Source: a bacterium c-19 (lineage in GTDB: Bacteria > Bacillota_I > Bacilli_A > Erysipelotrichales > Erysipelotrichaceae). Taken from it: DNA of 64,000 nt. The position numbers were made by a program, and so were the translations under genes. Positions 8,726-25,246 of the stretch are shown piece after piece (position 1 is the stretch's first letter; every line of letters starts with the position of its first letter). The stretch is from assembly GCA_009917405.1 (NCBI GenBank), contig QZED01000001.1:62001-126000 (forward strand), written 5' to 3'. The notes below the pieces were generated by a model, which saw only the letters and a list, made by a program, of their open reading frames with translations, had not been told where the DNA came from and ran no database searches.

Positions 8726-9196
8726 ATGGCAAAGCCATTATTCGATAATATGAAAAATGGCTACAACCGATATCAGGTAGATGATTACCTTAACGAGATG
8801 GAAAGTCAGACAGCCATGCTGCACCGAAAAGTTGAGATGTATCGCCAGCGCAGTGAAGAAGTGGAAAAACAGCTGAATGTGATTAAACAGAAATATCAGT
8901 TTGTGGTCGACGGCTTAAGCGCTAAGGAAAGAGCAGCCGACGATATGGCAAGGATGGCAATGAAGGAAGCGAACATGATTGTGGATACAGCCCAGCATAA
9001 TGCGGATGTCATTGTAAAAGAAGCCTTGATGACTGCTCGAAGCATCTTGCTTGATATTGCGAAGCTCGGCAGTGAAGCCAGTGAACTTAAGGGTAATATG
9101 TATGAGCAGCTGCAAGAACTGTCGCGAGCATTGGATGAGTTTGAAGTTCCGCCAATACCCGATATGGATTTGTTGAATAAAAATCGTGAAGAATAA
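8726..9196 (+). CDS. divIVA: DivIVA domain protein
   Basis: 156-residue coiled-coil protein that recognises negatively curved membrane at septa and poles. The N-terminal motif MAKPLFDNMKNGYNRYQVDDYLNEME is the DivIVA membrane-binding domain, followed by a long heptad region up to residue ~140 (HRKVEMYRQRSEEVEKQLNVIKQKY and beyond). ATG at 8726 is preferred over the in-frame GTG at 8717, because CGGAGGTG at 8712-8719 serves as ribosome site. It is the last gene before the ileS leader, as in B. subtilis. Confidence 0.92.
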   Translation: MAKPLFDNMKNGYNRYQVDDYLNEMESQTAMLHRKVEMYRQRSEEVEKQLNVIKQKYQFVVDGLSAKERAADDMARMAMKEANMIVDTAQHNADVIVKEALMTARSILLDIAKLGSEASELKGNMYEQLQELSRALDEFEVPPIPDMDLLNKNREE

Positions 9197-9423
9197 ATGC
9201 GTATGAGGAAAGACGTACATGCATGACGGATTTTACAGAGAGAAGTCGTTTGGTGCAAGACTTCAATGAAGCATGCTTCGGCATCACTTTCCCAGCAGAT
9301 ATTGTGAATAAAGTAAGAATATCCGTGTGATCTCGTTATCGATCATGAGTGCCTGTCGCATGTGCGATAGGAATAAAGGTGGTACCACGACTAATGCGTC
9401 CTTTAGCGGCGCTTTTTTTATAT
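9197..9423 (+). promoter_or_regulatory. T-box riboswitch (isoleucine) controlling ileS
   Basis: Stem I hallmarks are visible: ACAGAGAG (about 9231-9238), a GAAGTC/GACTTC hairpin with TTTGGTG in its loop, and a likely specifier ATC at 9283-9285 followed by ACT, matching isoleucine. The conserved T-box AAGGTGGTACCACGA lies at 9376-9390; TGGT pairs with the ACCA end of uncharged tRNA-Ile. A short terminator hairpin (GCGTC with GGCGC) and a T run end at 9423. Uncharged tRNA-Ile stabilises the antiterminator and lets ileS be transcribed. The specifier position is inferred from pattern. Confidence 0.88.
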
Positions 9424-23559: not shown

Positions 23560-23588
23560 TTGAGTGATTGAACAGAAATTACTATAAT
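23560..23588 (+). promoter_or_regulatory. Sigma-A promoter of the ssb-ncRNA unit
   Basis: TTGAGT (23560-23565), 17 bases, TATAAT (23583-23588). Confidence 0.7.
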
Positions 23589-23593
23589 ATGCA

Positions 23594-23616
23594 TGTACAT
23601 CGAAGAACGATGTACA
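23594..23616 (+). repeat. Perfect inverted repeat at the predicted 5' end of the ssb transcript
   Basis: TGTACATCG (23594-23602) and CGATGTACA (23608-23616) around AAGAA. It begins about 5 bases after the -10 element, so it would be the first structure of the mRNA, or an operator covering the start site. The right arm recurs exactly as the left arm of the terminator at 24151-24159. Confidence 0.7.
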
Positions 23617-23647
23617 CTTCGGCGATTTCGGAAAGGAGGAGGATGCA

Positions 23648-23962
23648 GTGATCAATAATGTGGTACTGACAGGACGCATCGCGGAGCTGCCGAAGCTTCG
23701 TGAAACTGCGACCGGTATAAAGTATGCGACAATTTTGCTGGACATTGTAAGACCGTTTAAAAATAGCAACGGTATTTATGACAGCGATAAAATTTCCGTT
23801 ACCTTATGGAAAGGAATCGCAGAAACAGCCGGCGAGGTTTGTAAGGTCGGCGATATGCTGGGCGTCAAAGGACGCATTCAAACGTACAGCGTCGAGAAGG
23901 AAACACAGACCTACTATAATTATGAAGTAGTAGCGGAGCACGTTTCTTTTATGTCAGTATAA
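23648..23962 (+). CDS. ssb: Short single-stranded DNA-binding protein
   Basis: 104 residues with one OB fold of the SSB family: INNVVLTGRIAELPKLRETATG at the N-terminus and DKISVTLWKGIAETAGEVCKVGDMLGVKGRIQTY in the core. It stops right after the fold and lacks the acidic C-terminal tail used by SSB to recruit partners, so it is an accessory SSB or primosomal-type protein rather than the main replicative SSB. GTG start at 23648 follows AAAGGAGGAGG. It is transcribed from its own promoter and no protein gene follows; instead the structured RNA at 23963 starts at the base after the stop codon. Confidence 0.85.
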   Translation: MINNVVLTGRIAELPKLRETATGIKYATILLDIVRPFKNSNGIYDSDKISVTLWKGIAETAGEVCKVGDMLGVKGRIQTYSVEKETQTYYNYEVVAEHVSFMSV

Positions 23963-24192
23963 TTTATGCCCTTCGAGTGAAATCCTTTCTTCTTGCTCAG
24001 TAAGCAGTTTTATCCATATTCTTAACTCTCATTACTAATGAAGCCATATGCAGGGTTTGATCGAAGGGCATAAAAGGAATTAAAAAGCTAGGACTCTGCA
24101 TATGGTGATATATAATCAGCCCAAATGCCGTTGAAACGGCAAATCACAGGCGATGTACAACTTCCCTTTCTTGTGCATCGTCTGTTTTTTTT
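23963..24192 (+). ncRNA. Unassigned structured RNA with a large pseudoknot
   Basis: Two perfect or near-perfect 14-bp helices interleave. Helix A: 23963-23976 (TTTATGCCCTTCGA) with 24061-24074 (TCGAAGGGCATAAA), fully complementary. Helix B: 24043-24056 with 24093-24106, core CCATATGCAG / CTGCATATGG, extended by G-U pairs. Since B's left arm lies inside A and its right arm outside, they form an H-type pseudoknot. A third hairpin TGCCGT-TGAA-ACGGCA (24126-24141) and a 15-bp terminator (24146-24185, then Ts) complete it. No open reading frame explains the pairing, and the next gene is on the other strand, so it is not a cis riboswitch for a downstream gene. Size and pseudoknot could fit the raiA RNA class of Bacillota, but I cannot confirm its consensus. 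It may be processed from the ssb mRNA. Confidence 0.7.
24146..24192 (+). terminator. Terminator of the ssb-ncRNA unit
   Basis: 15-bp stem from 24146-24160 with 24171-24185 (CGATGTACAA pairing TTGTGCATCG in its core), loop of 10, and eight Ts. Confidence 0.88.
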
Positions 24193-24270
24193 GGATGCTT
24201 TGGATTTAGCAGGAAAGGGGATTCGTATAAAAAAAACGATATGAAGTATATCTCATATCGTCATTGTTCA

Positions 24271-24873
24271 TTAACGGTTGTAGAACTCTACTACCAGTAA
24301 CTCGTTGACTTCCGGATTTAATTCACTGCGTTCCGGTAAACGTAAGTAAGTACCTTTTTTAGTGTCTTTGTTGAAGTCAACAAATGCTGGTGTATTCAAA
24401 GAAGCTTCTAAGGACTCATTGATCACTTTTAAATTTCTTGATTTTTCTTTGATTTCGATTGTGCTGCCTACTTTAACCTGCGCACTTGGAATATCACATT
24501 TTTTACCGTTTAATAAAATGTGACCATGGTTTACTAACTGACGAGCTGCTCTTCTTGTCGGAGCGATTCCCATACGATAAACGATGTTATCCAATCTGCT
24601 TTCCAGCAGGCACAGGAAGTTATCACCGGTTACACCTTTCATACGCGTTGCTTTTGTAAATGTGTTGTAGAACTGGCGCTCATTTACTCCGTACATAAAA
24701 CGAATTTTCTGTTTTTCACGAAGCTGTAAGCCGTAATTTGTCAGCTTTACACGTTTTGTCGGTCCGTGCTGTCCCGGTGCATACTGACGTCTTTGTAATT
24801 CTTTCCCGTTTTCCAAAATGGAGAATCCCAAACGACGAGATACTTTCCAAGTTGGACCTGTAATTCTTGACAT
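24271..24873 (-). CDS. rpsD: 30S ribosomal protein S4
   Basis: 200 residues, standard S4. Primary 16S rRNA-binding protein that nucleates 30S assembly. [18 protein letters not shown] at the start, then the S4 RNA-binding domain ([40 protein letters not shown]). No CxxC zinc motif in the N-terminal part, so the zinc-free form. It is alone on the minus strand with a long structured leader, as in B. subtilis where rpsD is monocistronic and self-regulated. Ribosome site AAGGAGGACATAAC precedes ATG. Confidence 0.97.
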
Positions 24874-25060
24874 GTTATGTCCTCCTTATTGTTTGTCGGT
24901 GATCAGACAACAACAGGGGTAAATCATCATCCGTTGTGTTAATACTCACGACACCCTCACTTCTCAGCTAAGTTACTCGATTGTCCCATACTATGTATGT
25001 TATTAACACGGTCATCCGCATGACTTTACCGGCCGCTATCATTTTCACGCCAGTATATAT
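24874..25060 (-). promoter_or_regulatory. Probable S4 autoregulatory leader of rpsD
   Basis: The leader of about 190 bases contains a 9-bp perfect inverted repeat (24936-24944 GTGTTAATA with 25001-25009 TATTAACAC) and a small TTGTC/GACAA hairpin near the ribosome site. S4 represses its own mRNA in Bacillota by binding such a leader; that this one does so is inference. The rest of the 25060-25246 gap holds the two divergent promoters, including TATAAT at 25192-25197 for ezrA on the plus strand. Confidence 0.5.
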
Positions 25061-25246
25061 TATCAGAAGATAGGATGAAAGTCAATAAAATAGCTGTATT
25101 TCATCACAAAAGAACAAATTGGAATGATTTACAAGTACGATTCTTATATAGAATATGAAATTTCTTAATGAATTAGTATATAAAATATGATATAATAACA
25201 CATAGAAAAATGTGATTTACAGAGAAACTTTAAGCGAGGTACAAAT

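Follow-up and report, generated by a model that had tools for sequence, protein, structure and literature searches.

C-rich-loop small RNAs of Firmicutes, such as RsaE/RoxS and FsrA, carry a C/U-rich hairpin loop that is able to pair with Shine-Dalgarno regions, and to our knowledge they do not contain an H-type pseudoknot with helices of 14 and 16 bp. Similarly, we know of no pseudoknot in the 3' UTR of icaR. This 3' UTR from Staphylococcus aureus pairs with its own mRNA and is a precedent for pairing between a 3' UTR and a Shine-Dalgarno sequence (PMC3868564). The consensus of raiA motif RNAs comprises two pseudoknots and P1-P8, and these RNAs are usually encoded beside comFC/raiA, a location that is common but not universal; in clostridial cases a conserved SigA promoter is present (PMC11706538).

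In the window, that is the whole 64-kb stretch of DNA analyzed here, from an uncultured Erysipelotrichaceae bacterium of mouse-gut type, an element of about 225-230 nt is located at positions 23963-24192 of the plus strand, 3' of ssb. It is probably a structured RNA of recent origin, restricted to one genus and so far undescribed. In 5' to 3' direction, its parts are the 5' arm of helix A, loop L1, the 5' arm of helix B, 2 nt, the 3' arm of A, loop L3, the 3' arm of B, a short segment, hairpin P3, AATCA, hairpin P4, and T8. The copy of the window is called W, and those of the relatives are L002 (genome G005), L003 (G006), L004 (G002), and L009 (G004). The features of the locus are as follows.

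23648-23962, plus strand: ssb, gene for a short SSB protein of 104 amino acids (PF00436), immediately upstream of the element
23892-23920, plus strand: possible internal promoter TCGAGA-17-TATAAT within ssb, similar in four relatives, overlapping conserved codons
23963-23976, plus strand: 5' arm of helix A, pairing with 24061-24074 (stem search; two compensated pairs in L009)
23977-24042, plus strand: loop L1 of 66 nt, CU-rich near its start (alignments)
23981-23998, plus strand: CU-rich stretch AATCCTTTCTTCTTGCTC in L1, conserved in four genomes and recognizable in L009
24043-24058, plus strand: 5' arm of helix B, which crosses helix A, pairing with 24091-24106
24061-24074, plus strand: 3' arm of helix A, 2 nt past the 5' arm of B (0 nt in L009), a near-coaxial H-type junction
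24075-24090, plus strand: loop L3 of 16 nt; in four of the five genomes it is A-rich
24091-24106, plus strand: 3' arm of helix B (stem search)
24126-24141, plus strand: hairpin P3 with a TGAA loop (fold and alignment)
24142-24146, plus strand: invariant linker AATCA, within AATCACAGG, which is identical in all five genomes
24146-24185, plus strand: hairpin P4, arms 24146-24160 and 24171-24185, 15 pairs
24162-24172, plus strand: CU-rich loop of P4, TTCCCTTTCTT, conserved and similar to an anti-Shine-Dalgarno sequence
24185-24192, plus strand: U-run (T8), probable terminator tail, missing in L009
24271-24873, minus strand: rpsD (ribosomal protein S4), convergent neighbor (gene call)

The stop codon of ssb (TAA) occupies positions 23960-23962 and the next base is the start of helix A, as stated in a preliminary description of this DNA, which also placed a TGAA-loop hairpin where P3 is found. 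That description had given two interleaved helices of 14 bp each; the crossing was recovered and helix A indeed consists of 14 pairs, all of them Watson-Crick, while helix B extends to 16 pairs, of which 4 are G-U. Stems of at least 10 bp within the element are A, B, and P4 only. As the junction between the 5' arm of B and the 3' arm of A is nearly without nucleotides, the two helices could stack end to end. A possible helix C between L1 and L3 (23980-23988 with 24073-24081) was set aside as no more than a lead: relatives keep only a core of 4-6 bp, and its formation would mean crossing A as well as B. The final hairpin had been described as a 15-bp terminator, and its 15 pairs are followed by T8, making P4 with the U-run a plausible terminator in four of the five genomes; however, L009 keeps P4 without the U-run and the sequence of the P4 loop is conserved; P4 is not a terminator alone.

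As already described, no gene on the same strand comes next, rpsD being convergent, so that the element is unlikely to serve as riboswitch or attenuator of a gene further downstream. The promoter-like forms within ssb in relatives are TTGAGA, TCGAAA, or TTGAAA, each with a spacing of 17 to TATAAC. A promoter directly before helix A, with TATAAT at the ssb stop codon, was discarded because it is absent from L003 and L009. The 5' leader of ssb (window positions 23585-23640) contains a hairpin, TGTACATCG-AAGAA-CGATGTACA. Its arms have letters in common with P4 (GCGATGTACA), and in L003 and L009 it is less strong or has another form. In the rpsD leader (window positions 24880-25070, minus strand), a block ACAACAGGGGTAAATCATCATCCGYTGTGTTAATAC (plus-strand letters) is common to this genome and G004; the leader is probably an S4 autoregulatory one, but had no match in Rfam up to E=1.

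Wherever the locus is assembled within the genus, which is the case in five genomes (W, L002, L003, L004, L009), the element occupies the same position after ssb; the five sequences represent three really distinct lineages. Two further genomes of the genus are less complete and rpsD was not found in them; in one of these two the locus cannot be judged because ssb ends at the contig end. Helices A and B, each of at least 10 bp, cross in all five genomes. In the most divergent copy, that of G004, helix A is formed by ATGCCCTTTGG and CCAAAGGGCAT and helix B by TGCAAATGATCTTCG and CGAAGGTCATTTGCG, so that with other letters the crossing pairs are preserved, with a junction of 0 nt. In an alignment assembled by hand from the arms, which is biased towards the structure, both sides had changed in 9 of 14 pairs of helix B (100% paired), 2 of 11 of helix A, 1 of 5 of P3, and 3 of 9 of P4, amounting to 15 of 39 pairs, with 97.9% of the cells paired and none of 500 shuffles equaling this result. 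An alignment made by the model, in which helix B was not placed, displayed covariation in A and P4 as well. The element thus has two helices that cross and whose sequences have changed in a coordinated way, as expected for an H-type pseudoknot. The compensatory changes in A, B, P3, and P4 support a structured pseudoknotted RNA by the test that the preliminary description had itself set for this proposal. Between W and L003, identity is 80.9% in the RNA, 55% in synonymous codons of ssb, and 28% in the spacer to rpsD. The unpaired letters surviving to G004 are AATCACAGG, the preceding CAGCC..AAA, the CU-rich loop of P4, and the CU-rich stretch of L1. We regard both the existence of the structure and its maintenance by selection as highly probable.

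The raiA motif RNA had been named as the first known class to be compared, an assignment that is not supported. With Rfam 15, no family reached its gathering threshold for the element or for the copies of the relatives, and in the region 23600-24300 no credible match, including to raiA, was obtained up to E=10. A search of the genome with the raiA model (RF03072) gave no match, and control genomes gave none either. 6S RNA (RF00013) was also rejected, because the only 6S-like match of the genome lies elsewhere and below the gathering score (L048, G000:C96:228293-228452; 38.6 versus 46.4 bits). A T-box leader (RF00230) above the gathering score is located at window positions 9193-9406. The main text of recent structured-RNA surveys makes no mention of ssb or rpsD, and together with the lack of a matching Rfam family this indicates an RNA that is, as far as can be checked, undescribed, although its general kind is known.

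For the range beyond the genus, 316 genomes from 80 genera of the order were searched with two patterns, one of helix A with TCACAGG and one of the P3-P4 side. Matches to the P3-P4 pattern were exactly the five members of the genus, one per genome, and the helix A pattern gave two extra matches in another genus, the letters of which, as far as displayed, are unlike the element beyond the pattern itself. Across GTDB, the helix A pattern returned four members of the genus and two further matches, which lack the remainder of the element and were judged to be chance, and the phages and plasmids scanned gave no match. Genome searches with the covariance model R1 missed the known G004 copy and their negatives were given no weight; discarded as chance or coding matches were L089, L090, and L092, the viral matches L107-L113 (no R1 match), L053 (weak R1 match), and L157 (inside a CDS). 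Among 60 genera of the family, 43 have a short ssb of the same type, and none of 24 ssb loci examined outside the genus is followed by such an element. In G068, from another genus, ssb and rpsD are likewise convergent neighbors with a short terminator alone between them (L025), and almost the whole of this genome, scanned directly, yielded neither the element sequence nor a fold with its motif. A new RNA tied to ssb had been offered as the other possibility; the tie stands in every member of the genus with an assembled locus but not in the other genera examined, where ssb occurs without the element, even in the same ssb-rpsD order. As these searches gave no credible relative outside the genus, the element was gained in the genus, disappeared from other lineages, or diverged there so far that it is no longer recognizable.

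The loop of P4 reads TTCCCTTTCTT in W and TTTCCTTCCTT in L009 and is similar to the anti-Shine-Dalgarno tail of 16S rRNA. With gene starts picked partly by their Shine-Dalgarno sequence, it favored ribosome-binding sites, compared with sites in the middle of genes, by 4.8 kcal/mol (W, this genome) and 5.4 kcal/mol (L009, G004), a preference equaled by 5 of 100 and 1 of 100 shuffled loops, respectively, which is modest evidence that the P4 loop may pair with mRNA start sites. The CU-rich loops can also pair with GGAAAGGAGG of ssb (-13.7 kcal/mol in W and -12.1 kcal/mol in L009). However, a pairing that is specific for the start site of ssb, and with it this part of the proposed tie to ssb, is not supported, the site ranking 9 of 224 and 33 of 145 and being equaled by 62 of 200 shuffled loops in W.

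That the locus reflects chance complementarity or a plain terminator has a negligible probability: P4 with its U-run is terminator-like in four of five genomes, but crossing stems with at least 11 Watson-Crick pairs each arose in only 1 (W), 0 (L003), and 3 (L009) of 10,000 dinucleotide shuffles, or 0, 0, and 2 when the tight B/A junction was added, bearing out the earlier statement that the complementarity exceeds chance, and L009 has the fold in different letters. When the 64-kb window was tiled on the plus strand, the crossing architecture was detected at the element only, and in a looser fold scan of about 315 kb of the genome on both strands, window included, the element was the sole match; for the nested fold by itself, z is -4.4. 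That the locus is a gene for a small peptide or the remnant of a mobile element instead of a functional RNA is very improbable. Short ORFs exist in each sequence, and the adjacent ssb and rpsD of G068 without the element do imply gain or loss, but no ORF is common to all five sequences, in agreement with the preliminary view that there is no coding explanation, compensatory changes preserve pairing and not codons, and the element is present as a single copy per genome and matches no phage or plasmid.

Among readings as a functional RNA, we tentatively favor a 3' UTR or 3'-UTR-derived RNA of ssb, in which the pseudoknot would be the stable body and the P4 loop the antisense arm. Transcription would continue from ssb, or from the possible promoter inside it, to the end of P4 and the U-run, the near-coaxial pseudoknot would give a compact, nuclease-resistant body, and the CU-rich loop of P4, perhaps with the CU-rich stretch of L1, would pair with Shine-Dalgarno regions of at least one mRNA and lower its translation, in the manner of the C-rich-loop small RNAs and regulatory 3' UTRs known from Firmicutes. 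A cis-acting 3' UTR, which through its pseudoknot and P4 would act on the stability, termination, or translation of the ssb mRNA itself, for example by blocking a 3' exonuclease or by pairing with the ssb Shine-Dalgarno sequence, seems rather unlikely; the element starts immediately past the stop codon of ssb, is always found at this place, and its loops can pair with GGAAAGGAGG, with icaR as a precedent (PMC3868564), but the ssb start site is unexceptional among genes and matched by shuffled loops in W, and other genera carry the same ssb without the element. We also hold as somewhat improbable a free-standing ribonucleoprotein or protein-binding scaffold, as raiA/ModT or OLE might be, with an incidental position after ssb: the elaborate fold, the strong conservation of unpaired AAUCA, CAGCC, and the P4 loop, and the possible promoter inside ssb argue for it, and the lack of an Rfam relative, the overlap of the promoter match with conserved codons, and the restriction to one genus argue against it. 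A more far-reaching reading is distinctly unlikely, namely a recent RNA class of one gut genus in which a long, near-coaxial H-type pseudoknot bears a hairpin mimicking the anti-Shine-Dalgarno tail of 16S rRNA; such an RNA would compete, generally or selectively, for mRNA start sites and would be coupled to expression of the short SSB.

The pairing rests on compensatory change and not on a single fold prediction, and none of the Rfam families tested includes the element. The restricted distribution and the empty ssb-rpsD junction in another genus make it a case for studying origin or loss of a complex structured RNA in gut bacteria, and the anti-Shine-Dalgarno-like loop of P4 offers a directly testable function. 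Like raiA/ModT, the element is a structured pseudoknotted RNA of Firmicutes, similar in length to the about 210 nt of that RNA and followed by a terminator; unlike raiA, it has one H-type pseudoknot and two hairpins, its neighbors are ssb and rpsD, and its promoter differs. With H-type pseudoknots generally it shares the order S1-L1-S2-L2 (0-2 nt)-S1'-L3-S2' and near-coaxial stems, whereas its stems are unusually long, L1 is long, and no shifted or downstream reading frame follows. The icaR 3' UTR likewise has a pyrimidine-rich stretch able to pair with a Shine-Dalgarno sequence (PMC3868564), but pairing with the own mRNA has been demonstrated for icaR and is not specific in the element. With RsaE/RoxS and FsrA, to which it has no Rfam match, the element shares a C/U-rich hairpin loop, here UUCCCUUUCUU / UUUCCUUCCUU.
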